From IMG/VR virus record IMGVR_UViG_3300030106_001041, positions 1 through 21,847 of that record: a stretch of 21,847 nt of DNA. One strand, 5' to 3'. Both the position numbers and the translations under genes were made by a program. Source of the DNA: a virus. How positions within the stretch are numbered: the first letter of the stretch is position 1; each line of letters begins with the position of its first letter. The notes beneath the pieces are model-generated. The model ran no database searches, was not told where the DNA came from, and saw only the letters and a list, made by a program, of their open reading frames with translations. Below are positions 4,172 through 21,847 of the stretch, one piece after another.

Positions 4172-6543
4172 GCCGAATTGTACAGTATCAATCATCATTT
4201 ACTATGGGAGAATTTGATCCACTTGTAAAAGGTCGAGTGGATATTACTCAATATCAGGCGGGTCTTGAAAAAGCGACCAATGTTTTGTGTATTCCTCAAG
4301 GTGCATTAGAAAGAAGACCAGGACAACAATTTTTGCTTGATGTTACTTCAGATTTAGGATCATCTTTTACTGCTCAACAAGGACTTCGTTTGATTCCTTT
4401 TGAGTTTTCAAGTGTAGATTCATTTATGTTAGTCTTTGTAAAATTATCAACTAGTTCGTCAAACAATGCAAAGATGTTTGTGTTTAGACAAGGTGTATTG
4501 CAAACCAATATAAACTCAAGTGGTAATAACTATTTAACTGTATCATTAGGAGATATATCGTTTGATGCAATAACCTTTACACAATCTGCGGATACTTTGA
4601 TTTTAATGCATGAAGATCTTGCTCCGTTATCGATTGTAAGGGGTGCTAATAATACAACATGGACAGCAAGTACAATCAGTTTAACTTCGCCAAAGTTTGC
4701 TTTTACAAAATCTGTATCTGAACCTTCAGGAGATATTACGCCCTCTTCTATTGATGGTACTGCAACCATATCAGCATCGGCTAGTATATTTTCTAGTGGT
4801 AATGTCAATCAATATATTAATGTCAAAAATGGCTTTGGTAGAGCTAGGATTGTTGAGTTTGTTTCCGCCACCTCTATAAAAGTAAATGTAGAGATTCCAT
4901 TCTTTAATACTTCTGCAATATCGGCTGGAAGTTGGGAGCTAGAAGCTGGATATGAAGATGTCTTTTCTGCATCTAAAGGGTTTCCAAAAACAGGGGTATT
5001 TCATGAAGGGAGATTATATTTTGGCGGATCAAAAAGTTTACCCTCGGCTTTGTTTGGATCTAAGGTATCTGACTTTTTTAATTTTCTTGAAGCAGAAGGT
5101 TTAGATGATGACGCTATCTTTGCGTTACTATCTTCTGATTCTGTCAATGCCATTACAGGGATTCGTTCAGGAAGAGATTTGCAGATCTTCACTACGGGAT
5201 CAGAGTTTTTTGTACAACAAGCAGAAGGTCAACCGATAACCCCTGGCAACCTTACTATCAAAGCTGCAACTTCATCTGGATCTAAACCTAATATTATGCC
5301 TGTATCCGTTGAAGGGGGTACAATCTTTTTGCAAAGATCAGGAAAAGCGTTGCGAGAGTTTTTATTTAGCGATGCAGAATTATCGTATCAATCAAACAAT
5401 ATATCATTGTTATCAAGTCATTTGCTAAAAAGTCCTGTCAAGATTGCATTTAGAAGAGCAACCTCTACGGATGACGGAGATTTGTTAATGATCGTCAATG
5501 GTACTGATGGAACGATGGCAGCGTATTCAATACACCGATCACAAAAGGTAGTAGCTCCAAGTGAATTTATTACTGATGGTACATACGAGGATTGTGCGGT
5601 TGATATTGATGATATTTATGTGATTGTCAAAAGAACGATTGCAACGGGTGTAAGTGCAACAATCACAGTTACAGATTATGCTAACATTGCGGTTGGAACT
5701 AAACTTACATTTACAAAGAATGATGGAACAGTAATTACTTTGCAATCAGAAGCAGCGGGTTCAAGTAGTCCAAGTAGTGCGAGTGGCAACACTCATTTTT
5801 TTAGACCCAATACAAATAACGATACAACTGCCGATAATATTGCAACAGCACTCAATGCTGTGTCTGGCTTTACCGCTGCGAATCCGTCTGCAAATGTTGT
5901 TACTGTTGTACGAGATGTATCTGGATCAAGTAATTTAAGTGTAACAACAGAAGATTCTACTAGACTTGCCATAACAAACTTTGTGGAAAGTACAAAATTT
6001 TATATAGAAAGGTTAGACGATGATAGAACTACTGATGCTTCTTTTCAGCTTTTTGATGGGAGTTCTGATGGGAGCAAACCTACCTCAACAACAGTTACAG
6101 GTCTTAGTCATTTGGAAGGAGAAACTGTTGAATGTGTTCGGGATGATATATTCTTGGGTGAAAAAACTGTTTCGTCAGGACAAATAACAATCGATCAAGT
6201 TCCAACAAGTTATGTAGAGATTGGATTACATCATGACGTATTAGCGAAAACACTTCCCGCAGAACCTAGACTTGCTTCGGGTACAATGGTTGGAAGAAAA
6301 AAAAGAATAGTGGCGGTATCACCTGTTCTTAATCAAACACAAAATATTGCAATCAATGGTAATGAAGTGAGTTTAAAACAGTTTCCCTATACTCTTGATT
6401 CTTCTGAAACATTATTCACAGGGCGTAAGCGTGTCACACCTTTATTGGGATATAGCGAAGAAGCTCAAATATCAATCACTCAAACGAAACCCTTGTTTTT
6501 TACATTGTTGAGTTTAGAGTATAGCGTTAGTGGGAGTCAGTAA
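4168..6543 (+). CDS. Tail tubular protein B (T7 gp12-like nozzle) with an inserted beta domain
   Basis: 791 residues, similar to T7 gp12 (794). The N-terminus is characteristic: SSFTMGEFDPLVKGRVD, then YQAGLEKATNVLCIPQGALERRPG. Further family segments are FPKTGVFHEGRLYFGGSK (about 271-288) and SAITG-like DSVNAITGIRSGRDL. The protein makes the hexameric tail nozzle to which fibres attach. At about residues 490-607 the usual hairpin is interrupted: DDIYVIVKRTI is followed by a Thr/Ser/Asn-rich beta domain (TITVTDYANIAVGTKLTF ... TTADNIATALNAVSGF ... SRLAITNF-like end), after which TKFYIERLDD resumes. The insert resembles modules spread through marine phage virion proteins. It may alter host surface contact, which is inference. 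Overlaps both neighbours by a few bases. Confidence 0.87.
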   Translation: MSRIVQYQSSFTMGEFDPLVKGRVDITQYQAGLEKATNVLCIPQGALERRPGQQFLLDVTSDLGSSFTAQQGLRLIPFEFSSVDSFMLVFVKLSTSSSNNAKMFVFRQGVLQTNINSSGNNYLTVSLGDISFDAITFTQSADTLILMHEDLAPLSIVRGANNTTWTASTISLTSPKFAFTKSVSEPSGDITPSSIDGTATISASASIFSSGNVNQYINVKNGFGRARIVEFVSATSIKVNVEIPFFNTSAISAGSWELEAGYEDVFSASKGFPKTGVFHEGRLYFGGSKSLPSALFGSKVSDFFNFLEAEGLDDDAIFALLSSDSVNAITGIRSGRDLQIFTTGSEFFVQQAEGQPITPGNLTIKAATSSGSKPNIMPVSVEGGTIFLQRSGKALREFLFSDAELSYQSNNISLLSSHLLKSPVKIAFRRATSTDDGDLLMIVNGTDGTMAAYSIHRSQKVVAPSEFITDGTYEDCAVDIDDIYVIVKRTIATGVSATITVTDYANIAVGTKLTFTKNDGTVITLQSEAAGSSSPSSASGNTHFFRPNTNNDTTADNIATALNAVSGFTAANPSANVVTVVRDVSGSSNLSVTTEDSTRLAITNFVESTKFYIERLDDDRTTDASFQLFDGSSDGSKPTSTTVTGLSHLEGETVECVRDDIFLGEKTVSSGQITIDQVPTSYVEIGLHHDVLAKTLPAEPRLASGTMVGRKKRIVAVSPVLNQTQNIAINGNEVSLKQFPYTLDSSETLFTGRKRVTPLLGYSEEAQISITQTKPLFFTLLSLEYSVSGSQ

Positions 6544-7076
6544 TGACAGGCAGTACAGTATTAAATGTTTTAACAGCGGGAACAGTATTTGGATCTGTTT
6601 TACAGTACAGACAAACAGTTGCTCAAGGAAAAGTTCAACAAAGAATTGCTGAAGCAGAAGCTCGTAACAGAAGATTAGAAGGAAGAGTAGAAGCGGTCAA
6701 AGCAAAAGAATCAGCAAATGAAATATTAAGAAGAACAAAAAAAGCGTTAGCGAGTAATATTGCGAGAGGATATTCAAGTGGCGTTATACCAGAAATAGGA
6801 TCTTCTGCGGTATTTAGTGAGCAACAAGTCTTACGACCCGCTGCATTAGATGTTGGTATATTAGAACAAGATGCTTTCCTTGCTATTGAGCAATCACAAA
6901 GACAAGCAAGGAATATAGAGTATCAAGGACAAATGGCAGCAAGACAAGCAAAAACCGAAGCTCTATTTAAATTAGGCACAGATCTTGCTCAAGTCGCCAT
7001 GACAGGAGTGGGATCAGGAACTGATAAATCTATTGCACCAAAAATAGAACCTGCAAAAAATGTGAGATTTGGATAA
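6543..7076 (+). CDS. Internal virion protein, T7 gp14-like
   Basis: 177 residues starting in a TAATG overlap with the nozzle gene. A short hydrophobic N-terminal segment (VLNVLTAGTVFGSVLQY) is followed by a long Gln/Arg/Glu-rich helix (QRIAEAEARNRRLEGRVEAVKAK, positions about 33-55), a Gly-Ser turn (GYSSGVIPEIGSSA) and a second amphipathic helix region. This layout and gene position match the gp14 family of ejected core proteins, which inserts into the outer membrane during DNA ejection. The C-terminus is Ala/Gly-rich, ending KNVRFG. The family call rests on layout plus synteny. Confidence 0.72.
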   Translation: MTGSTVLNVLTAGTVFGSVLQYRQTVAQGKVQQRIAEAEARNRRLEGRVEAVKAKESANEILRRTKKALASNIARGYSSGVIPEIGSSAVFSEQQVLRPAALDVGILEQDAFLAIEQSQRQARNIEYQGQMAARQAKTEALFKLGTDLAQVAMTGVGSGTDKSIAPKIEPAKNVRFG

Positions 7077-8830
7077 TGGCTGAAAGAAAACGACTAGAAA
7101 GATCTATACTAAGTACAAGTTACAGACCAAGTGCTGCAACCGAGGTAGGTATTTTAGAACAACAGGCAGTAGGTCAATCACGTATGGGCAAACTGTTAGA
7201 TAACATGAGTAGTTTTTTCTTTGACCAAATGCAAGAAAAGGTTGTAGAAGAAGCTGAACAGTATGGAGCTGCTAATCCAATAACTTTAGAACAATTATCT
7301 AACGCTCAACAATCTGGTGAGGATGTTTTAAAAAAATATGGATATGGAACAAGAGGTAAAGTAGCCCGTAGTAAGGCATTAGAAGGATTAATATTAGACG
7401 TAGAATCTGAAGCTGCAAGAACATTTACTGCTTTAGAAATAAATGCAAAATCAACTAAGATTGATCCAGGTGAATATGCTGAACAATTAGATGCAACTAT
7501 TTTAGGTTTTACAAATGTAACTAAAGATTTTCCAGAAATATCTAACAAAATAAAATCAACGCTTTCTGTGTCAGCTAGTGGATATTTAAAAGAGTATTAT
7601 AAAGATATAGCAAAACTAGAAGTAGAAAATAAAAAAAGAAAATATACAGCCGCTTTCACAACTTCTCTAGAAAGTTTGCCACAGGAAATTGATAGCTACA
7701 TTGATAATGGTGGAACGATACAAGATTTATTCATAAAAAAAAAAAAAACATTAAGTGATGCAGCGTTTGTTAGTGATATTAGTAGTCCTGTTTTTAAAAA
7801 AGATCTTGAAGTTTATAGAAAAGACTTTGTTAAAACTTTATTTAGAGCGGGTGGAGAAGAAGCATTAAGAGATGAAAAAGCAAGTAATGACGCAATAGAA
7901 CTGTTAAGTAGACAAAAAACAAATAATAATAAAATAAACAATATCTACAATTTTTTAAAACCAGATGAACAACAAGATTTTATTAAATACTTGATAAAGC
8001 AAGATGAACTTCAAAATAAAGCTGTTAAAGATATGGCTGACCAAAAAGAAAATGAAAACAAACTTAATGAAGATATATTTACACAAGCAATTGCAAATGA
8101 AGAGTATTCAAAGGCAGAAGAAGCGTTATCAAAATTACCTTTAACAAAACAAAATCAATTAAAAAGTGTATTACAAAAAATAGGTCCAGAACCTCATCCA
8201 TCATTTCTAACTATGGAACAAAGAGAGATACAAAGTAATTTAATAACTAAGGGCGAAAATGGATCTTTGACTATGGAGGAACTTGTCAACAATAGAGAAA
8301 ACATTTTGTATGAAACTTTTCAAAGTTTAGTCAAACAAGTCAACGCAAACATAGATACTGAATTTACAAAAAGATCGCAATTATTTGTAGGTAAATATAA
8401 ATTAGATGCAGATTTAAGAGATTTATCTGATCAAGAAAGAAAAGATAGACAAATAGCATTAGAGATAAAAGCAGATGTTTTTGAAAAGTATATTGAAGCG
8501 AAAGCTAAAAACAAAACTTTTGATATTAAGGCAGAGTTTGAAACACAAGAGCAAAATTTAATTGTTAAAATAAATAAAGAAGTCGATAATAAATTGTTAA
8601 AAAACAAGGATAAAAAAATAAATGATGCTTCTTATATGAGATTTGGTGGTGAAGATCTTCAAGCAAAGCAATTACTTACCCTTGAACAAGCAATCCAATT
8701 TTTAACATATCTTAGTGAAAATCGAGAAGAAGCTGGAAAAAAATACAAGAAGGTTTTCTTTCAACCTCCCGCAACTGTTCAGACTTTATTAGAAGAATTA
8801 AAAAGAATTAAGGAATTAGAAAGTCAATAA
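7076..8830 (+). CDS. Internal virion protein, T7 gp15-like
   Basis: 584 residues, mostly helical and highly charged with a Lys/Glu/Asn-rich middle. The N-terminus has Arg-rich RKRLERSILSTSYRP followed by VGILEQQAVGQSR, a phrase echoed in the gp14-like protein before it. No enzymatic motif is visible. Size (T7 gp15 is about 750) and order after the gp14-like gene suggest the core protein that lines the ejection channel. Codon 221 onwards contains a run of fourteen A bases (7735-7748) encoding KKKK; any slippage there gives an early stop. Start is coupled to the previous stop (TAATG). Sequence-level similarity to gp15 itself is low by eye, so the call is from context. Confidence 0.65.
   Translation: MAERKRLERSILSTSYRPSAATEVGILEQQAVGQSRMGKLLDNMSSFFFDQMQEKVVEEAEQYGAANPITLEQLSNAQQSGEDVLKKYGYGTRGKVARSKALEGLILDVESEAARTFTALEINAKSTKIDPGEYAEQLDATILGFTNVTKDFPEISNKIKSTLSVSASGYLKEYYKDIAKLEVENKKRKYTAAFTTSLESLPQEIDSYIDNGGTIQDLFIKKKKTLSDAAFVSDISSPVFKKDLEVYRKDFVKTLFRAGGEEALRDEKASNDAIELLSRQKTNNNKINNIYNFLKPDEQQDFIKYLIKQDELQNKAVKDMADQKENENKLNEDIFTQAIANEEYSKAEEALSKLPLTKQNQLKSVLQKIGPEPHPSFLTMEQREIQSNLITKGENGSLTMEELVNNRENILYETFQSLVKQVNANIDTEFTKRSQLFVGKYKLDADLRDLSDQERKDRQIALEIKADVFEKYIEAKAKNKTFDIKAEFETQEQNLIVKINKEVDNKLLKNKDKKINDASYMRFGGEDLQAKQLLTLEQAIQFLTYLSENREEAGKKYKKVFFQPPATVQTLLEELKRIKELESQ
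7735..7748 (+). repeat. A14 homopolymer inside a virion gene
   Basis: Fourteen consecutive A bases run from the last base of an ATA codon through four AAA codons and into ACA. Both shifted frames stop within a few codons (TGA or TAA), so a slipped message would yield a product of about 225 residues. Such runs are known sites of polymerase slippage; whether it happens here is unknown. Confidence 0.9.
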
Positions 8831-8832
8831 TC

Positions 8833-11800
8833 ATGGATGTGTTTGAAGAAATATACAAAAAAAAAGAATTTGACGATCAAGGGATTGACTATGAGTTTGA
8901 CATTACAGACGGAGTTATGAAAGTAATGGTTAAAGATCCTGAACCTACATTATTAGAAAATATCGGAGAGGGTCTAGAACGAGTAGCGGGAACAACTGCA
9001 AGTATTGGTGCTGGAGCATTTGGAGCAACATTAGGGTTTCCTACTGATCTTGCAAGTTTGTTTATTAGTATTGGTAAATCTGTCGGTGCAGAAGATGGTA
9101 AGAAATTAGAAACATTTGCAAATACTTTTGAAACATTGTCAAAAGAAAATTATGGATCACAGTTTTATAAAGGTCTATTTGATAACTTTGTTGATGATTT
9201 AAAAATATCAGATCAAAAAAAAGAAGATTTTAAAGCTGGGTTTGTTGGCGGAGAGTTTTTAGGTGTTGGTAATATAGGAGGACAAGCAGCCAAGAAAGCT
9301 CCCGCAGTTGCCAAGAGTATAAGAGAAACATCAGAAGAAGTCGGAGAAGCTGCACAAAAAAGAGTAGATGAGAATCAAGGTTCAATGACTATGTCGAGTA
9401 TGGGTGTGGGTGAAATGGGTAACATGGTTAATAAAGGATTATCTAAACTAGCTCCAAAACTTTCTGTTAAAGATTCTGTCGTAAATTATGTGCAATCACC
9501 ATCTTTAATGTCAAGAGATGAATTAGTTAAGTCACTAGATAGTGACCCCACAGTAGTTAAAAAATCAGTTGCGGCATTAAGAAATTTAGGTAAAGTGAAT
9601 GACGATGGCACAGTAACCATATACAGACGAATTCCATTAAGAAAAGGTGAAGAGTTAAAAGATGAAGCGGTAATTTCAGGTTCACATGATGTTAGAGCCG
9701 TAAGAGATGCTCATGAAGGATTAGAGGGAATAACAACTTTTGATATATTTGGTCAACCAAAAGCAAGAGGAGAGGAAGCATTTGTTAAATATAAAGTTCC
9801 TATTGATAGAATTAAAGGCTATCTTCCTGAAGTAGGAGAGTATACTAGAGGTACACAAGCAAGAATACAAAGAGCTATGCAAGGTAGAATAGATGAAAAA
9901 CGGAAACAAGGTTTAGGTCAATTTACTAAACTGAAAGAAACAAAAAAGATATTTGAAAGACTTGTTAATAAAGAAAAAGAAATAATAGCTGATGTATCAG
10001 GTATCAAACCTGAAAAACTGGATAGAGCCATTCTTTATGATCCAAGTTTTGACGATATTATTGAAGGTAAGGTTAAAACAGGAGATGAATATAAAAAAGC
10101 AAATCCTGGAATTACTTTTGATGAAACTGCAAAAATAAGACAGGCCTTAGCAGGAGGTAATACTGTAAGAGCAGGTACAAATGAGCCAATCGAAATAGAC
10201 CAAAGTTTAGCAATCAATCCAAAAACAGGGAAAAGATTTACTTATGATGAGTTTATAGATTATGACAAACAAAAAGCTCAAGAATATGTAGATAAAATTA
10301 GAGATGATTTTGGGTTGCCTAAACTAGCTCCTAACAAAGGTGAGGTTATAGATCTTAAACCAAAAGTAGATCGTCTAAACTTTTACTCCAAAGCAGAAGA
10401 AGTAACCAATCAATTAAAACAAAACAAAGGCACAGGACAGCAGTATCGCCAACAATTACTTAAAGCGGGAGTAAAACCTGATGAGATAGAATGGCTAGGA
10501 CTTGATGATGTTCTCAAGAAAGGTAAAATTACTAAACAAGAACTACAGGATCAAATCAATGCAAACAGAATAGAGTTAGATGAGGTAGAGTTGTCTGGTG
10601 GTGGCGATAATGTAGCAGACGGATTAGCATCAAGATTTAACGAAAACGAAACAGTAATTTCCGCAGAAGATGCTTTTGGACCAAAGTATTTAAATGAACG
10701 AGCAGATAAGATTTTTGAAGAAGGTCCTTTAGATAAATCAAGAACAGACTTTACTAGAGACAAAGCAATGCAGTTGGCAAAGGCAGAATATGACGATAAT
10801 CCTGTCATGAAATATGTTGACCCAAAAACAGGATATACAATTACAGGAAATGATGATTTAGGGTATTCTATATTTAGGTCAGAAGCAGATAGCAGTAATT
10901 TCCGTAATGCTATTGATTATAATGAAAGTAACCCAAGTCAATCAAGAGATGTTCCATATTCACTTAATGAAGCGGTAATAAGAGCAAGAGAAGATATGAC
11001 GGATACAGGACTTGAATTTCAGATGAGTAGAGAATTGCAATCAATGGGTCGTACAAGGTTTGGAGAATTCACAGAACCAGGCGGAGATAATTACCGAGAG
11101 TTTTTAATTAAGTATAATGACCCTAAAGTGAAATTTGACGAAAGTCATTTTGATGAAGAGAATGTCATTGCTCATTTTAGAACAAAAGATAGAACAACAA
11201 GCGATGGTAAGAAAGTATTTTATATAGAGGAGATTCAATCGGATTGGGGTCAAAAAGGTAGACAAAGTGGTTTTAAAAAATCAGAAGAAGAAATGGTAGA
11301 AATATCAAATAAAAGAAAACAAGCACAAACAAAATTAGATAAATATATAAAACAAGTTCAAGATTCTGGTGAAGATTTAGCAGGTAAAGATTTAGATGAA
11401 GCAACTTCATTAAGAACTTATTTGCAACAAACTTCAACTTTTGTAGGTGACAATGACCGAAAATATTTTAAAGCACCATTCATAACAGATACCGATAAAT
11501 GGACACAGCTTACTCTAAAAAGAATATTATCTAAAGCAGTAGATGAAGGATATGATTTTGTATCTATAACTCCTGGCAAAGCACAAATGGATCGATGGAG
11601 AAATGAAGGTGTGGCTAAATTCTATGATGAGATTGTTCCAAAAAATGCAGAGAAGATTGTTAAGAAGTTAGATAAAAATGCTATACAGAAAGACAAAGCA
11701 ATAAGATTTCAAAAAACTTTTGAATCATCTCCTCCTTTAGATCAAAACGCAACAAGATTTAGCATAGAACTAACACCACAGCTAAAAGAAAAAGTAAAAA

Positions 11801-11856
11801 AAGGAATGGCGATGTTTAGTGCAACACCACTTGTTGTTGGTCAGGAGAACGAGTAA
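8833..11856 (+). CDS. Giant internal virion / polyvalent ejection protein, 1007 aa
   Basis: Begins two bases after the gp15-like stop. Residues 40-110 are Gly/Ala-rich hydrophobic (TTASIGAGAFGATLGF), possibly membrane-inserting. Residues about 258-335 (VTIYRRIPL, a Ser-Gly-Ser turn, then FVKYKVPIDRIKGYLPE) resemble an ADP-ribosyltransferase-like fold, but no clear catalytic Glu pair can be assigned. Residues about 515-570 contain a module seen in phage giant proteins (KGTGQQYRQQLLKAG, EIEWLGLDDVL). Residues about 750-1000 hold a second recurrent module: GGDNYREFLIKY, AHFRTKDRT, FYIEEIQSDWGQ, KAPFITD, LKRILSKAVDEGYDFVSITP, GVAKFYDEIVPK and the closing KGMAMFSATP. These modules recur in polyvalent proteins of phages and mobile elements; their chemistry is not known to me. 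Likely ejected into the host with the DNA. Its stop overlaps the next start. Confidence 0.75.
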   Translation: MDVFEEIYKKKEFDDQGIDYEFDITDGVMKVMVKDPEPTLLENIGEGLERVAGTTASIGAGAFGATLGFPTDLASLFISIGKSVGAEDGKKLETFANTFETLSKENYGSQFYKGLFDNFVDDLKISDQKKEDFKAGFVGGEFLGVGNIGGQAAKKAPAVAKSIRETSEEVGEAAQKRVDENQGSMTMSSMGVGEMGNMVNKGLSKLAPKLSVKDSVVNYVQSPSLMSRDELVKSLDSDPTVVKKSVAALRNLGKVNDDGTVTIYRRIPLRKGEELKDEAVISGSHDVRAVRDAHEGLEGITTFDIFGQPKARGEEAFVKYKVPIDRIKGYLPEVGEYTRGTQARIQRAMQGRIDEKRKQGLGQFTKLKETKKIFERLVNKEKEIIADVSGIKPEKLDRAILYDPSFDDIIEGKVKTGDEYKKANPGITFDETAKIRQALAGGNTVRAGTNEPIEIDQSLAINPKTGKRFTYDEFIDYDKQKAQEYVDKIRDDFGLPKLAPNKGEVIDLKPKVDRLNFYSKAEEVTNQLKQNKGTGQQYRQQLLKAGVKPDEIEWLGLDDVLKKGKITKQELQDQINANRIELDEVELSGGGDNVADGLASRFNENETVISAEDAFGPKYLNERADKIFEEGPLDKSRTDFTRDKAMQLAKAEYDDNPVMKYVDPKTGYTITGNDDLGYSIFRSEADSSNFRNAIDYNESNPSQSRDVPYSLNEAVIRAREDMTDTGLEFQMSRELQSMGRTRFGEFTEPGGDNYREFLIKYNDPKVKFDESHFDEENVIAHFRTKDRTTSDGKKVFYIEEIQSDWGQKGRQSGFKKSEEEMVEISNKRKQAQTKLDKYIKQVQDSGEDLAGKDLDEATSLRTYLQQTSTFVGDNDRKYFKAPFITDTDKWTQLTLKRILSKAVDEGYDFVSITPGKAQMDRWRNEGVAKFYDEIVPKNAEKIVKKLDKNAIQKDKAIRFQKTFESSPPLDQNATRFSIELTPQLKEKVKKGMAMFSATPLVVGQENE

Positions 11857-14720
11857 TGGTTAAAATAATTAAACGATTAATTGAGCTTGGGGAAGAATCT
11901 GAAAAAAGAGTTTATGGTAAAGATATTCCAGACGATAGAGATATTGTTCAACAAGATGGTAAAGTAATTATACAAAAAACAAGTCGAGCAGAAGCTCAAG
12001 AAATGTCAGATGCTTTTAACAAAGTGTTTGCTGATGCCACAACTATTGATGGAAGAGAGGTGTTAGAATCTTTAGATAATATGGAGATACCCACTACTTA
12101 CACTAAGGAATATTTGAATACAATCAAGGATGCAAATAAAAAATTATTTAATCATTTAAAACGAGGTAAGGTATCAACAGCCGATATGATTGCCTATGCA
12201 GAACAACTTGGTGAAAGAAATATTATAAAAAAATTAGTTATGATGAAACCAGGAGAAGTTACGAAAGCAGAAGATTTGTTTGCTGGTATGCTAGTAGTAC
12301 ACAAAAATTTAAGACGAATAGAAAAAAATTATAAAAAAATACGAGATGAAAATTTATCCGATGCAGAAATAAATAAATTAAATGATGAGATTGGGTTTCG
12401 CTCTTCCATAAATAAAAATATAGGATTACAAATTAAAGCTCAAAAATCAGAAGCTGGTCGTATTCTGAGAGATCCATTAGGAGGTAACACAGTAGAAAGC
12501 ATTATATTTACTGAAACACCCTCTGCGGGAGCATCTATTCCTGTAATTAAAAGAGCTGCTAAGTCATATCTTGCTTTGCCTATAAATGATCGTAGTCAGT
12601 TTCTTGTTAAAGGCGGACCTTTCGCAAAAACAAACCAAGTGATTCAAGAAATATATATTAATGCTTTGCTATCCTCTCCTGTAACACAAATGGTTAATAC
12701 TGCTGCTAACACCGCATTTCAATTTAAAACATTATTTGATACAGGCGTGGCGGGTACTGTAGGAACGATCAGAACAACAGCAAAAAAATTACTTGGTAAT
12801 GATCCAGAGTTTGATGAGTATGATCGAGTGTTTGTAGGAGAAGCAGCAGCAGAATTTTTTGGTAGTATTATGGCTCAAAAAGATGCTCTGACCTTAATGA
12901 GCAAAACTTTTATAAAAGGTGAAGCTCCAGATCTTTTAACTAAAACAGAACTAGAAGAATTAAGAGCTATAGGAAAAGAGCGAAATCCTTTAGCTATTGC
13001 AAAACAAATGAGAGAAGATCCTGGGGGGGCTTTTCTAAGTACAATCGGTGCGATCAACGGAATACCAGGCAGATTATTAGCAACAGGAGATGAATATTTT
13101 AAAGTAGTTTCAAGACAAAGATTTATTTATAAAGAAGCATACAAAGAAGCCATGGAAAGTTATCAGGTTACAAGAAAGGCTGAAAATGGAACAAGTGAAG
13201 AAGCGATAAGATCTTTTATAGATACATTTACAGATAGAATGGACAATCCAACAGAAGCAACTATTGAAGGTGCAAAACAATCGGCAAAAAGAATGACGTT
13301 CCAACAAGAATTAGGAAACAGTATACCAGAAAGGGGTGTGAGAAAATTAATGGAAATTAGTCCATTGATGCGATACATAATCCCTTTTGTAAGAACGCCA
13401 ACCAATGTTGTGAAAGAAGCTCTAGGTTCTACTATAATTGCTGCTGCTCATCCAAAATTTTATTCAAAATTAAAAAATGCAAGTGGTCGAGAATTTGATC
13501 AGTTAGTTGGTAAATTAGTTGTGGGTAATGGCATAGCAGCTACATTTATGGGTTATGCTTTAGGATGGTTTGGCGATGATGTCCGTATAACGGGTGCTGG
13601 TCCTAGTGCAAGAGGAGCTAGAAAATATTGGCAAGGTGCTGGAATACCGCAATACAGTATAGGTGTTCGTCAAGAAGATGGCAGTTATCAATGGACAAGT
13701 TACTCAAGGTTTGATCCAATATCAGGAATATTAGCGATGTCTGCTGATGCAGCTTATTACGTTCAAAATGAAAAAGACCCAAATTTAATTCAAGGTGTAT
13801 TTAACGCTTTAACTGTAAGTATTTTTGATTATGCTGGACAATTACCTTTTTTACAAGGGGTGTCTGATCTTACTAAAGCATTTGGAGATATAAAAAGCGA
13901 TCCGTTAAGAAGTTTAGAAACCATATCAAAGTTTGTAGGTCAAAAGGTTGGAAATGTTGCAACCACAGTTGGACGAACTGTCGGTCCTATAACAGGACCA
14001 ATGCAAGATTATCTAGCTAAATATACAGAGGATGCTTATTTTCCTATACCCCCAAGTAGTTCATCTTTTACCGCAACGCTTGAAAGAGTACAAGATCCTC
14101 GTAAGAGTCAAGTATATCGTTTAGAAGATCTTGAAGAAATAAGACAATTACCATCTTATATGCGAGGATTCTATACTGCTTTACAACAAGCAAAATCCCG
14201 TAACCCTAGATTTAGTGATGATCTATTACCAGAGTTAAATTTTTGGGGAGAAGAATTGACACAAACTGAAGGTCGTTTTGATGAATACTTTAATCCTTTT
14301 AGAAGAACTACAAGCAGAGAAGAAACACAACTTGAAAAAGAATTAATAGATATTGCCAATACATCAGGTAGAGTTTTTTCAAATCATCCATTTATTTTTA
14401 TGGCGGGTAAAGAACGAGTTGAACTGTCCGCTCCGTTATATAATACTTATATTAAGAATGTTAATTCTATTGATAACAGAGGTAGAGTATTTGGAGATGA
14501 TGGATATAACTATAATCAATCATTAATTCCAACATTAGAAAATATTATAAACGGAGAAGGTTCGATTGGTCGTTCCTATGTAGAACTTAAAGACCCAAGC
14601 CAAAAGTTTGACATACTCAATGCAGTTTTATCAACTAAAAGAAAACAAGCAAGAGATAAATTATATGAAGGCACAGACATAGAAACACAAAAACTTAATT
14701 TCTTTTTAGGCAATGAATAA
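11856..14720 (+). CDS. Giant internal virion protein, 954 aa (second half of a gp16-like role)
   Basis: Starts in a TAATG overlap with the 1007-residue gene. The N-terminal 220 residues are charged helix (Lys/Glu/Asp-rich). From about 265 comes the recurrent phrase INALLSSPVTQMVNTAANTA, then a helical region, GRLLATGDEYFKVVSRQRFIY (about 405-425) and ISPLMRYIIPFVRTPTNVVKEAL (about 502-524). A membrane-like stretch VVGNGIAATFMGYALGWFGDD (about 551-571) is followed by GARKYWQGAGIPQYSIGV and YSRFDPISGILAMSADAAYY. These phrases recur in giant structural or polyvalent proteins of marine podoviruses. I see no lytic transglycosylase domain like that of T7 gp16. Role inferred: DNA translocation channel component crossing the inner membrane. 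Confidence 0.7.
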   Translation: MVKIIKRLIELGEESEKRVYGKDIPDDRDIVQQDGKVIIQKTSRAEAQEMSDAFNKVFADATTIDGREVLESLDNMEIPTTYTKEYLNTIKDANKKLFNHLKRGKVSTADMIAYAEQLGERNIIKKLVMMKPGEVTKAEDLFAGMLVVHKNLRRIEKNYKKIRDENLSDAEINKLNDEIGFRSSINKNIGLQIKAQKSEAGRILRDPLGGNTVESIIFTETPSAGASIPVIKRAAKSYLALPINDRSQFLVKGGPFAKTNQVIQEIYINALLSSPVTQMVNTAANTAFQFKTLFDTGVAGTVGTIRTTAKKLLGNDPEFDEYDRVFVGEAAAEFFGSIMAQKDALTLMSKTFIKGEAPDLLTKTELEELRAIGKERNPLAIAKQMREDPGGAFLSTIGAINGIPGRLLATGDEYFKVVSRQRFIYKEAYKEAMESYQVTRKAENGTSEEAIRSFIDTFTDRMDNPTEATIEGAKQSAKRMTFQQELGNSIPERGVRKLMEISPLMRYIIPFVRTPTNVVKEALGSTIIAAAHPKFYSKLKNASGREFDQLVGKLVVGNGIAATFMGYALGWFGDDVRITGAGPSARGARKYWQGAGIPQYSIGVRQEDGSYQWTSYSRFDPISGILAMSADAAYYVQNEKDPNLIQGVFNALTVSIFDYAGQLPFLQGVSDLTKAFGDIKSDPLRSLETISKFVGQKVGNVATTVGRTVGPITGPMQDYLAKYTEDAYFPIPPSSSSFTATLERVQDPRKSQVYRLEDLEEIRQLPSYMRGFYTALQQAKSRNPRFSDDLLPELNFWGEELTQTEGRFDEYFNPFRRTTSREETQLEKELIDIANTSGRVFSNHPFIFMAGKERVELSAPLYNTYIKNVNSIDNRGRVFGDDGYNYNQSLIPTLENIINGEGSIGRSYVELKDPSQKFDILNAVLSTKRKQARDKLYEGTDIETQKLNFFLGNE

Positions 14721-18237: not shown

Positions 18238-18630
18238 ATGTTACAAGCACTTATAGGTCCTGTTGCTGGATTGCTAGATAAATTCATCGAGGACAAAGAT
18301 CAAAAGAATAAGTTGGCTCATGAAATTGCAACGATGGCTGACAAACATTCACATGAACTTGCTAAAGCTCAAATTGAAGTTAATAAAACAGAAGCTCAAT
18401 CTCGAAGCTGGTGGATTGCTGGATGGCGACCCGCTACTGGCTGGATCTGTGCCTTGGCAATGGGATATCATTTTATTATCCAACCTTTTTTAATATTTTT
18501 TTTGGCATTGTTTGGTATGAAAATGGATCTACCAAGTTTTGATATGGATACTTTAATGACAGTCTTGTTAGGGATGCTTGGATTAGGAACGCTCAGGACT
18601 GTGGAAAAATCAAAAAAACTCACTAAATAG
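18238..18630 (+). CDS. Holin, 3-TM (GTA holin-like) family
   Basis: 130 residues preceded by AAGGAGGT (18226-18236). The N-terminal amphipathic part (ALIGPVAGLLDKFIEDKDQKNKLAHEIA) is followed by AQSRSWWIAGWRPATGWICALAM, the family's hallmark W-x-x-G-W-R-P, then membrane spans at about 61-90 (IIQPFLIFFLALFG) and 100-120 (MTVLLGMLGLGTLRTVEK). It matches holins of the 3-TM superfamily that open the inner membrane so that lysozyme, which lacks a signal peptide here, can reach the peptidoglycan. Position two genes before the lysozyme supports this. Confidence 0.85.
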   Translation: MLQALIGPVAGLLDKFIEDKDQKNKLAHEIATMADKHSHELAKAQIEVNKTEAQSRSWWIAGWRPATGWICALAMGYHFIIQPFLIFFLALFGMKMDLPSFDMDTLMTVLLGMLGLGTLRTVEKSKKLTK

Positions 18631-18821: not shown

Positions 18822-19252
18822 TGTACGATATTTTAAAAGAAAGAATTAAAACCCATGAAGGGTTTAGGGATTTTTGTTATTTAGATTCGTTAGGAAAAAA
18901 AACAGTAGGCTGGGGACACTTATGTAGAGATGATGAAGAATGGGATATAAAAAAAACATACGAGATAGATTTTCTTGAAGAGGTTTTTGAGAAGGATTTT
19001 AAAAATGCTCTTGGTGGTGCAGAGAGTTTGATTGGTAATGTTAAGATACACCCTCAAGCAAAAGAGATCATTATTGAGATGGTGTTTCAACTAGGCAAAA
19101 CAGGCGTGAGTAAATTTAAAAAAATGTTAAAAGCTCTCAAGAAAAAAGATTACAAAGAAGCTGCTAACCAAATGCTTGATTCTAAATGGCATACACAAAC
19201 CCCTGAAAGAGCTAGAGCATTAGCATCGTTAATGAGAACTTTGCATGGTTAG
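18821..19252 (+). CDS. Endolysin, GH24 T4-type lysozyme (muramidase)
   Basis: 143 residues. The N-terminal catalytic pattern is intact: Glu13 in THEGF, Asp22 in YLDSLGKKT, and Thr28 before VGWGHL, with spacing identical to T4 lysozyme (Glu11, Asp20, Thr26). The helical lobe follows (EMVFQLGKTGVSKFKKML, about 86-103) and the conserved TQTPERARALASLMRT end. It cleaves the glycan backbone of peptidoglycan. No signal peptide or SAR helix, so it needs the upstream holin. Start overlaps the 60-residue gene (TAATG). Its stop overlaps the end of the opposing minus-strand operon by four bases. Confidence 0.9.
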   Translation: MYDILKERIKTHEGFRDFCYLDSLGKKTVGWGHLCRDDEEWDIKKTYEIDFLEEVFEKDFKNALGGAESLIGNVKIHPQAKEIIIEMVFQLGKTGVSKFKKMLKALKKKDYKEAANQMLDSKWHTQTPERARALASLMRTLHG

Positions 19253-19461
19253 TCCAACAGTCTAATAGATCTTCCCTTTCCTTTTACTCGTTCAATTTTT
19301 TTTAGTTGCTCTAATCTTTTCAAAGAATCCTGTACTGCTGATAAAGTTTTGTGATTCAGATATTCTTTGATCTCAACTTGCGAGGGTGCGAATCTCTCCC
19401 TGTCAATATAGTCTTTAATGAAGAGAAAAACTTTTTGGCTTAGTGGTGTTAGCTTAGTCAT
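19249..19461 (-). CDS. Stand-alone LexA-type winged helix protein (no peptidase domain), 70 aa
   Basis: The ATG at 19461 is chosen; a TTG at 19467 adds two residues. The protein starts MTKLTPLSQKVFLFIKDYI, followed by FAPSQVEIKEYLNHKTLSAVQDSLKRLEQLKKIERV and GKGRSIRLLD (three parts of one fold). This is the LexA N-terminal pattern: T-x-x-Q, a helix, P-S-x-x-E-I (recognition-helix lead), then L-K-x-L-x-x-x-x-x-I and the wing R-x-I-R-L. The Ser/Lys peptidase half of LexA is absent. It might repress the minus operon or compete with host LexA. Overlaps the RecT-like stop by eight bases. Confidence 0.74.
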   Translation of the reverse strand: MTKLTPLSQKVFLFIKDYIDRERFAPSQVEIKEYLNHKTLSAVQDSLKRLEQLKKIERVKGKGRSIRLLD

Positions 19462-20239
19462 GTTCAAACCTGTCTACTTTCTTTTGTATATCTTGATAGA
19501 TCTCAGGTTCAGCTTTAGACAATTCATCTAAAACTTTTTTATTGACAGTATATGCCTTTTTAATTTTTTTAAGTTTATCTATTTTAGTTGTATCAGGATC
19601 AGTCATAATCTGTAATATAAGATAATTAAAAGTTTCACCTAATGATTCTAAGGTATTATGTGCCTTTTCTTGATTACCAGGAAGCATTAGCTTGTAGGTG
19701 GCTTTATTAGACTCGTCTATTCGTTTTAATACATCTTGAGTAGTAGGAGTCATCTTGCCTTGCTTATGCTTACTAACAGCTCTCTGTGGGAGATCTTCTA
19801 CCTCGGTTTCATCTAAAAATCCACCGAGTCCACAAATTGACAGAGTTACTCTTCTTTTTGCTTTCGTGACTGCTTTGAGCATGGCATTACCCAGAGGATC
19901 TCCTCGAAGTCCTTGCACATTTGCAAATCCCATGTCAGAATCTTTTCTTCCTTTTGCATCTTCTGCTTCAACAACAATAGTTAATAAACCATTATCTATT
20001 TTTCTGTCTTTAACTGCGATACTTATTTTATGAAGTGATCGTAATTGATCCGTACAATTTTTAGTTGCATATAAAGTTTGTTTATTATTAAGAACAATGT
20101 AATCAAAAGGTTTAGTTAAGGGATTGATACCTATACTTTCACACACTTTTTTATAATAGATTAATTTATCTTGATCCGACAAGGTTCTAAGATCTTGTTT
20201 TAATATTACTTGTTGTAATTGATTTGCTAACTCATTCAT
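19454..20239 (-). CDS. RecT-like single-strand annealing recombinase
   Basis: 261 residues, second gene product after the exonuclease in the same operon. The core has YYKKVCESIGINPLTKPFDYI (about 28-48), LNNKQTLYATKNCTDQLR, DNGLLTIVVEAEDAKGRKDS, and the segment GNAMLKAVTKAKRRVTLSICGLGGFLDETEVE (about 117-148), which is the RecT/Bet-type annealing protein pattern. Such proteins coat single strands produced by an exonuclease and pair them with complementary DNA. The C-terminal 110 residues are a charged helical tail. Start GAGATAAGTAATG gives a weak ribosome binding site, and the gene overlaps the exonuclease stop by eight bases, so the pair is translationally coupled. Confidence 0.83.
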   Translation of the reverse strand: MNELANQLQQVILKQDLRTLSDQDKLIYYKKVCESIGINPLTKPFDYIVLNNKQTLYATKNCTDQLRSLHKISIAVKDRKIDNGLLTIVVEAEDAKGRKDSDMGFANVQGLRGDPLGNAMLKAVTKAKRRVTLSICGLGGFLDETEVEDLPQRAVSKHKQGKMTPTTQDVLKRIDESNKATYKLMLPGNQEKAHNTLESLGETFNYLILQIMTDPDTTKIDKLKKIKKAYTVNKKVLDELSKAEPEIYQDIQKKVDRFEHD

Positions 20240-21185
20240 TACTTATCTCCTTTACTGTTAGTTTTTCATATTTACTTTCTGGTTTTGCTGGTACAATTTT
20301 TTCAACTGTTGCTTTGCGAGTAATAGTTTCAAATGCTATTTGTTTATTTCTAATTTTTACATGACTCGCATTTTCCTGTTGCAAAATAGATTTAATATTA
20401 TTTGCTAGTTGATCTTTTGTTGTGGTCCATGCTTGTATTTCTTTTTTTGCAAGATCATAATCATCGCATAACTGAGTTAATCCCTTATCATTATTTGACC
20501 AATCAGAAAACACTTTCTCTGTTGATTCCTCTGATAGTGGGTAAGGTTTATCTTTGATAACCCGTTGCCAAAACTCTTGAACATGTTGAATTATTTTTTT
20601 CTGTATATCCTTGTTAGATTCAAAGACAAACATTTGCATTTTTAATCGAGGACCAAGGTGTCCAATTACACCCCATTTAAATCCTGATACTTGCATCTGT
20701 GCTTGGAGTTGGAGGATATGTTCATAATCAATACCATCATTATATCCTTGAGTTTTAATTTCACATACACCCTTGCCAGACAAAATCAAAGTCTTTCCTG
20801 TTTGTGGGTCATCATAATGTATTGATCCGCCATGCACTTCTAATATACCATCAAGAGATGCTGCCATTTTATGTTTGTCTAAACGAAATGCATCTTGGGG
20901 TTTAGTGAATGAAATACTTATCTTATCTAAACACAAAGAATCTAAAGTATCGGATACCCAATGGGCAATACCATCTTCTAAATAGTTTCCTCGATCTTTG
21001 GCGTTTTGGTTTTGCCGACTTTCAAGTTGAACAACGTCAGGGTTTTGTCTTATCTCAACAAATGTTTTTCTAAGATCTTCACGGGTCAAACCAAAATCGT
21101 TCTGACCTAGAACAATCGTAGGAATCTTCGATGCACCGACTTCAAATCCGTCTTTGCTAAATTTATTTTTTGGTACTGACATCAT
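20232..21185 (-). CDS. YqaJ-like PD-(D/E)XK exonuclease
   Basis: The ATG at 21185 gives 317 residues. It sits in an ATGA overlap with the 52-residue gene; a second ATG at 21182 is also well placed after GGGAGG (21189-21194 on this strand). An upstream ATG at 21212 adds nine residues but has no good ribosome binding site. The nuclease core is visible: GASKI-P, RGNYLEDG with Glu70, AASLDG with Asp112, CEIKTQG with Glu142 and Lys144, and HILQLQAQM with Gln159/161, the YqaJ/lambda-exonuclease style active site. C-terminal 110 residues are helical. It would resect double-strand ends 5' to 3' for the RecT-like partner. Confidence 0.85.
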   Translation of the reverse strand: MMSVPKNKFSKDGFEVGASKIPTIVLGQNDFGLTREDLRKTFVEIRQNPDVVQLESRQNQNAKDRGNYLEDGIAHWVSDTLDSLCLDKISISFTKPQDAFRLDKHKMAASLDGILEVHGGSIHYDDPQTGKTLILSGKGVCEIKTQGYNDGIDYEHILQLQAQMQVSGFKWGVIGHLGPRLKMQMFVFESNKDIQKKIIQHVQEFWQRVIKDKPYPLSEESTEKVFSDWSNNDKGLTQLCDDYDLAKKEIQAWTTTKDQLANNIKSILQQENASHVKIRNKQIAFETITRKATVEKIVPAKPESKYEKLTVKEISNE

Positions 21186-21340
21186 GCACCTCCCATGTAA
21201 AAAGATGCACATTGATCATCAATCGCACATAGAAAAATAGACAAGAAATAAAAAAAAACAAACATCAAAATGAGTGAAACAGTTGTTCCAAACAATTCTT
21301 TCATGCCTGTGCTTGTAATAAAATCAAAAAAGTTTTTCAT
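21182..21340 (-). CDS. 52-residue single-TM membrane peptide
   Basis: Begins nine bases after the recombinase stop with AGGGG upstream. It encodes MKNFFDFITSTGMKELFG, then a strong membrane segment (VSLILMFVFFYFLSIFLCAI, residues 21-40), then DDQCASFYMGGA. The stop TGA overlaps the exonuclease start. Two Cys (38 and 44) lie near and after the membrane end. Its Shine-Dalgarno, tight operon spacing and clear hydrophobic pattern support translation. I know no family. It is odd to find a membrane peptide between a recombinase and a nuclease; it might localise the recombination complex or act as a small toxin-like peptide. Confidence 0.7.
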   Translation of the reverse strand: MKNFFDFITSTGMKELFGTTVSLILMFVFFYFLSIFLCAIDDQCASFYMGGA

Positions 21341-21348
21341 ATATACCC

Positions 21349-21847
21349 CTAATTTAAAGTTGATATTCTATCTAATGCTCTCTTGACTGTGGATGCACTC
21401 CAACAACACCCTTTAGCCGTTTTTATGTTACGAACATTTAGATAATTAGCCATGCCAAGTAAGGACTTGGAATGATTCTTTGCATCGTCAAGATGAATCC
21501 GAACCTTGGATAAATTGTTTATAGCTTTATGTTTCAAAGCTTCAGAAGCTTTTGCTCTTGCTTTATCCATAGAGTTATGCACACCCAGTTTCGTCATCTT
21601 ACGATTTGTAGATTTAGTAATGTAATAACCTTTTTCAGCAATAGAAGTTTTCATCTCTAAACATTTTTCTTTTTGCTTGACAGATAAATCTCTTCTGTAT
21701 TGGTCAGAAAACATCGCATTGACACCAAACATAATTCTATTTTTATCTTTAGTTATCTCTGGATTATTACACACCACCAAATTAAAATTTTTATTATCTC
21801 TAAACTTAATCATGTCATAGTCTAGACGACCTAACCTAGACAAGTCG
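21349..21847 (-). CDS. Small serine recombinase (resolvase/invertase type), N-terminus outside the window
   Basis: The frame is open to the right edge; about 165 C-terminal residues are seen. The first visible block DLSRLGRLDYDM is the conserved active-site Arg segment (L-x-R-L-x-R) of serine recombinases. It is followed by VVCNNPEITK, a helix MFGVNAMFSDQYRRDLSVKQKE that corresponds to the dimer helix E, and a C-terminal helix-turn-helix (LGMANYLNVRNIKTAKGCCWSASTVKRALDRI), whose N-rG-xkT-x-G-x-W-S-x-x-x-V pattern is typical of this family. The catalytic Ser and about 60 residues lie off-window; total length near 230 suggests an invertase or resolvase rather than a large integrase. Confidence 0.8.
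   Translation of the reverse strand, partial: DLSRLGRLDYDMIKFRDNKNFNLVVCNNPEITKDKNRIMFGVNAMFSDQYRRDLSVKQKEKCLEMKTSIAEKGYYITKSTNRKMTKLGVHNSMDKARAKASEALKHKAINNLSKVRIHLDDAKNHSKSLLGMANYLNVRNIKTAKGCCWSASTVKRALDRISTLN

Follow-up and report, generated by a model that had tools for sequence, protein, structure and literature searches.

A further gene in the ejection-protein cluster

The window analysed here, a virus record of 21.8 kb, carries late genes in a T7-like order: capsid, tail tubular proteins A and B, a gp14-like gene, a gene in the gp15 position, the gene at 8833-11856, a gp16-like gene and a fibre gene (Table 1). Methylophilales phage MEP301 is the closest isolate for the tail (45% in tubular B). 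The gene at 8833-11856 is a genuine open reading frame, as an earlier note on this DNA had assumed, and its product has a modular anatomy in which an N-terminal module, a KLAP motif, an inserted cassette, a second KLAP and a C-terminal unit follow one another. The earlier note had placed the gene where T7 encodes gp16. This placement misses by one gene: the adjoining gene is the one homologous to internal virion protein D. A PHROG search revealed no homology of the 1007-residue protein to T7 gp16 or internal virion protein D, and its identity as gp16 was ruled out. Searches with the full-length protein gave no credible match in Pfam, PHROG, NCBIfam or PDB.

Table 1. Features of the gene at 8833-11856 and its neighbours (positions in the window; residues of the 1007-aa protein)
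Feature	Position	Strand	Remarks
gp14-like internal virion protein	6543..7076	+	phrog_418, 3.2e-9
Gene in gp15 position	7076..8830	+	position and weak similarity to MEP301 gp26
Whole gene	8833..11856	+	ATG start; 1007 aa
N-terminal module, type A	8833..9441	+	residues 1-203
Left 13-bp repeat copy, CTAAACTAGCTCC	9443..9455	+	codes for SKLAP linker
Cassette core	9460..10017	+	residues 210-395; ART-like stretch preceded by a helical N part
Rest of cassette	10018..10318	+	poorly conserved relative to the second carrier (L028)
C-terminal unit, M1	10312..11853	+	residues 494-1007; GLDD part plus EIQSDW part
Right 13-bp repeat copy	10319..10331	+	at KLAP 497-500, kept in all relatives
GLDD part	10375..10602	+	residues 515-590; the GNAT-like match begins with its final strand, IELDEVEL
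Hypervariable segment	10603..11052	+	residues 591-740; alternative versions in relatives
KVFYIEEIQSDWGQKGRQSG	11212..11271	+	residues 794-813; predicted beta4 plus following loop
Second hypervariable insert	11284..11463	+	residues 818-877; predicted helical hairpin
gp16-like internal virion protein D	11856..14720	+	homology to internal virion protein D

The slot between the gp15-like and gp16-like genes is syntenic in the window and its relatives, and gp34 of Pelagibacter phage HTVC028P, a cultured relative, has the same two-part C-terminal unit in the same slot. MEP301 encodes a 161-aa protein, gp25, in this slot; its similarity to the N-terminal module is not significant (profile score of 1.7 bits against a best of 6.3 in 1000 shuffles), and gp25 was rejected as a proven homologue of that module. 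Median identities, which include some duplicate contigs, are 35% for the gp15-like and 31% for the gp16-like neighbours against 94% for the capsid. These neighbours are therefore also highly variable; exchange extends over the entire ejection cluster and is not unique to the gene at 8833-11856.

Further downstream, the window encodes an ordinary lysis pair, consisting of a GTA-type 3TM holin (18238-18630, +, E 9.8e-20) and a phage lysozyme (18821-19252, +, E 2e-11). The window also encodes a LexA DNA-binding-domain protein (19249-19467, -, E 4.8e-12) and an unassigned 261-aa protein (19454-20239, -) that adjoins a RecE-like exonuclease (20232-21212, -, phrog_434, E 2.7e-24) and is perhaps its annealing partner. 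At 21349-21843 (-), a match to Pfam Recombinase below cut-off (E 0.0088) may mark the C-terminal part of a serine recombinase; this part and the LexA-domain protein could mean that the phage is temperate or has a recombinase module.

The C-terminal unit and its predicted fold

Relatives conserve the protein from the second KLAP (residues 497-500) to the C-terminus. The earlier note had described at least two recurrent modules, and both motifs are present (EIEWLGLDD at residues 551-559 and FYIEEIQSDWGQ at 796-807) and recur between phages, not inside the 1007-aa protein, but they belong to a single unit. A GLDD module lies 65-307 aa upstream of EIQSDW in 55 of 70 distant EIQSDW ORFs; two separate modules were therefore rejected in favour of one two-part unit, M1. 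Relatives of M1 were found in at least 442 viral stretches, and the unit recurs in many giant phage proteins. In one ORF of 2622 aa (L098) it shares the polypeptide with Pfam ART-PolyVal (E 4.9e-22) and LPD22 (E 9.1e-19), and among the Foldseek matches of the unit in BFVD are proteins whose names refer to polyvalent domains. These associations agree with the earlier picture of a multi-module phage protein encoded in an ejection-protein cluster.

Profile searches, which the earlier note had proposed, gave no Pfam or NCBIfam match for the EIQSDW unit, hmmsearch of M1 against PDB returned 0 matches, and no GNAT was present among the best 25 of the 88 Pfam families matched by 74 members of the unit. 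As no sequence profile picks it up, M1 was not assigned to the GNATs. The literature searched, comprising open-licence papers only, yielded no description of the EIQSDW unit or of a cargo slot between gp15 and gp16, and no papers on EEIQSDW or DUF7178.

The AlphaFold model of M1 (residues 494-1007) is confident, with a pLDDT of 86 from 74 sequences; the alignment included 16 relatives from the protein search and 57 of the 70 distant ORFs, after leaving out duplicates, partial sequences, sequences more than 90% identical and one (L019) that does not end as expected at its C-terminus. GNAT-fold chains made up 48 of the 50 best VIA-align rows, the remaining two being ASFV polymerase rows. The top match was ICL2 (Z 9.5, rmsd 3.4, 147 aligned residues), and further best matches were AtaT, KacT, TacT, GCN5 and NatD; ICL2, Rv1916, BjaI and 7byy are chains that we take to be GNAT folds. 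Foldseek gave a weak best PDB E-value of 0.21. The GNAT-like predicted fold spans residues ~581 to 990, and the order of its predicted elements (strands at model positions 262-268, 285-296 and 301-309, a helix at 394-411, a strand at 416-419, a helix at 432-453 and two final strands) suits the GNAT order of beta1-alpha-beta2-3-4, alpha3, beta5, alpha4 and beta6-7.

The model is accompanied by a set of invariant, largely polar residues: Y754, E756, H772, R783, R787, E799, E800, Q802, S803, D804, G915 and R921 are identical in all 57 distant rows, and within KVFYIEEIQSDWGQKGRQSG the invariant positions are E799, E800, Q802, S803, D804 and G813. EEIQSD is carried on predicted strand beta4, and Y931, the tyrosine of FYDE, lies in the penultimate helix of the model, where the general acid of many GNATs sits. 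The acyl-CoA pyrophosphate loop of GNATs has the motif [QR]xxGx[GA] after beta4, and a conserved WxQxG[RK]xxG at this point in M1 is related in form, with a spacing that is not canonical. The earlier note had named purely structural predicted folds as grounds for refutation, and this is not what the model and the invariant residues of M1 point to: M1 has a GNAT-like predicted fold and is probably an enzyme, whose catalysis would depend on acyl-CoA. The two hypervariable segments, one of them in the predicted beta4-alpha3 loop, occur in alternative versions among close relatives and may set substrate choice.

The inserted cassette

Exact copies of the repeat lie 876 bp apart, equal to 292 codons in frame. 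The window reads NKGLSKLAP-cassette-LPKLAPNKGEV and relatives from the protein search read NKGLSKLAPNKGEV, and in each of the 21 relatives with sequence at this site KLAP is present and free of an insert. The ART-like stretch that the earlier note had marked at residues 258-335 does exist, but as part of this separate in-frame insertion, which those 21 relatives lack. A foreign composition of the insert was rejected, its codon-usage distance of 0.094 being within the null.

Viral scans identified a single other carrier, contig 3300030406_004683 (L028) of an unrelated marine phage, whose remaining genes differ from those of the window. The two cassettes share 81% protein identity; their cores share 89% nucleotide identity at a dN/dS of 0.12, and identity drops after residue 395. 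By this comparison, the cassette is a recently shared domain under purifying selection. Ahead of the cassette, the protein of the second carrier has a stretch that we read as ParB-like and that has no Pfam match. The degenerate pattern VPxDRIxxYLP gave 7 matches, in the relevant frame only on this same contig (as L114). Nothing was found when the cassette was searched in INPHARED, PLSDB, genome_contigs and PDB, or when the cassette-bearing protein of the second carrier was searched in INPHARED.

The arrangement in the window is known from one metagenomic contig, and an assembler could have stitched the 876-bp insertion in via the short repeats that flank it. Such a chimera appears very improbable: the k-mers used in assembly are usually longer than a 13-bp repeat, the frame is kept at both joints over 292 codons, and at another locus (L186) a compact YHHT-type ART-like domain stands at the same place, before KLAP. 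The first strand of the L186 domain aligns with that of the cassette (pairwise E 6e-4), and the domain has sub-threshold Pfam matches to KptA (E 0.053) and Tox-ART-HYD1 (E 0.093), both ART-fold families. KptA is listed among ART-superfamily proteins in PMC9503650, which also served as the source for ART clades.

The ART-like stretch of the cassette opens with a DGTVT[IV]Y strand (DGTVTIYRR in the window). Residues of the kind that the earlier note had named for an ART pocket are present as R265/R266, S282-x-S284 and E381-x-E383, but the same R...SxS...ExE pattern also arose in 193 of 2000 shuffles. Conservation relative to the second carrier falls directly after EKEIIADVSGIKPEK, and the motif thus lies inside the conserved core. 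The cassette matched nothing in Pfam, PHROG or PDB, and its model, built from 2 sequences, reached a pLDDT of 41.7. Assignment to ART-PolyVal (PF18760, H-Y-D active site) was rejected, on the grounds that there is no Pfam match and that strand 1 reads TIYRR instead of carrying His. On these sequence features, the cassette is probably ART-like. More specifically, it might be a genuine R-S-E ADP-ribosyltransferase delivered with the DNA like T4 Alt, which passages of PMC5512222 describe as a virion-delivered ART. The DGTVTIYRR strand, the place of the motif inside the conserved core and the L186 domain speak for this reading, which is compatible with our preferred explanation, and the missing matches, the low-confidence model and the shuffles speak against it, leaving about an even chance that it is correct. 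Profile searches indicated no sequence relation between T4 Alt and the cassette.

Exchange at the linker and the proposed role of the cargo

A protein scan with N-module A identified 39 loci, at which the tail is the GNAT-like M1 in 18, M2 in 11, M3 in five and a compact ART-like domain in one (L186, with the order N-module, ART-like domain, KLAP and M1 tail). The remaining four have no tail; three are contig ends and one is a closed solo protein (L187:3197-3760), a cargo-free N-module of 187 aa between gp15-like and gp16-like genes. Across the 34 loci with M1, M2 or M3, the linker reads SKLAP in 32, SKLSP in one and AKFAP in one, and a second N-terminal module, B, uses this linker too, continuing into M1 in 3 contigs and into M2 in 2. 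M2 matches DUF7178 (E down to 3.1e-28), a Pfam family of unknown function that occurs as exchangeable ejection-cluster cargo at L118:1919-3085 and L171:5610-6860. Neither M2 nor M3 had a BLAST match to M1, the cassette or each other at E 1e-3; a common superfamily of M2 and M3 (hhalign E 0.28) and a relationship between M2 and M1 (E 0.055) were both rejected.

Modules are exchanged at this linker. Over 11 relatives in which N-module A and M1 are both complete, identity to the window in the N part is uncorrelated with that in the C part (rho 0.06), as exemplified by L020 (95% and 45%, respectively) and L018 (46% and 76%), and at L154 the capsid and tubular A are 99% identical to those of the window, yet the cargo is M3. 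Conservation of the linker is modest, its K, L and A showing a synonymous difference of 0.08 compared with 0.0-0.7 nearby; this was taken only from loci found by protein, since DNA-selected sites had been chosen with the linker itself. A narrow-pattern scan of genome_contigs found nothing. The repeats and the reassortment suggest recombination at the short shared linker, and the RecE-like exonuclease of the phage could drive or help such short-homology recombination. N-module A, the putative packaging or delivery part, has a Gly-rich hydrophobic stretch at residues 62-80; the score of its most hydrophobic stretch is similar to those found for the gp14-like and gp16-like proteins, but also to that of the capsid protein, and is thus a weak indicator.

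Variable C-terminal parts could also belong to a purely structural, non-catalytic ejection protein and serve to match the DNA-translocating channel to the envelopes of different hosts. The slot lies among core proteins, the gp15-like and gp16-like neighbours are equally variable, and mosaic ejection proteins with swapped functional domains are on record in passages of PMC8954989. We nevertheless regard this as unlikely in view of the charged and polar residues invariant across 57 distant rows, the GNAT-like fold predicted for M1, the occurrence of DUF7178 and ART-like domains as alternatives, the cargo-free version at L187 and the presence of M1 in unrelated giant phage proteins.

We slightly favour the view that the product of 8833-11856 is an internal (ejection) protein, the fourth in this T7-like marine podovirus, with exchangeable cargo after SKLAP. 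The position of the gene suggests delivery by the virion: the constant N-module would package the protein with the gp14/15/16-like core, the protein would leave the virion along with the DNA, and the cargo behind the conserved SKLAP linker would act early in the newly infected cell by modifying host molecules, perhaps host proteins or tRNA. In the window phage, this cargo would comprise a GNAT-like domain of acyltransferase type and a recently inserted, probably ART-like domain, the latter perhaps with ART activity.

By analogy, we infer that such a swappable-cargo ejection protein would work like a polymorphic toxin or a polyvalent protein. Polyvalent proteins are, in the portions of PMC5512222 that describe them (Iyer et al. 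2017), large modular phage proteins, predicted to be injected, in which GNAT and ART domains are typical. The 1007-aa protein is likewise large and modular and, as is the rule for polyvalent proteins, is encoded among virion structural genes; with its predicted GNAT-like unit and putative ART-like cassette, it may also combine domains of disparate activity. Its C-terminal unit co-occurs with ART-PolyVal and LPD22 in L098. Unlike polyvalent proteins, it has no Pfam polyvalent domain, and it features a fixed linker, a constant N-module and one exchangeable cargo. The MuF polymorphic toxins of temperate phages, as covered in passages of PMC12226406, similarly join a constant N-terminal delivery domain to a variable C-terminal enzymatic domain. 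Here, however, the slot belongs to a T7-like ejection cluster and not to a MuF head gene, no MuF domain was matched in Pfam, PHROGs or NCBIfam, and no immunity gene was identified for 8833-11856. The gene shares its cluster with T7-type gp14, gp15 and gp16, as outlined in part in PMC8954989, and differs from that system in that its product is additional to gp15 and gp16, is encoded between them and has cargo other than a peptidoglycan hydrolase. Literature searches for swappable ejection cargo, within open-licence papers, contributed nothing beyond PMC5512222, PMC12226406, PMC8954989 and PMC9503650.

For M1, this work proposes a first fold and a first set of active-site residues for a domain that occurs in at least 442 viral stretches and had no Pfam or NCBIfam match. 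More tentatively, T7-like marine phages might possess a polymorphic ejection cargo slot, in which a constant core-protein module stands empty or is joined to unrelated enzymes via a fixed linker of ~13-16 bp; the cargo set, on this still somewhat doubtful reading, could comprise ART-like domains of two kinds, a divergent GNAT-like family, DUF7178 and a third module. If the slot is real, the SKLAP linker after a constant N-module would provide a simple handle for finding more cargo, these phages would swap their injected content as polymorphic toxins swap warheads, and even small T7-like phages would deliver exchangeable enzymes with their genomes.
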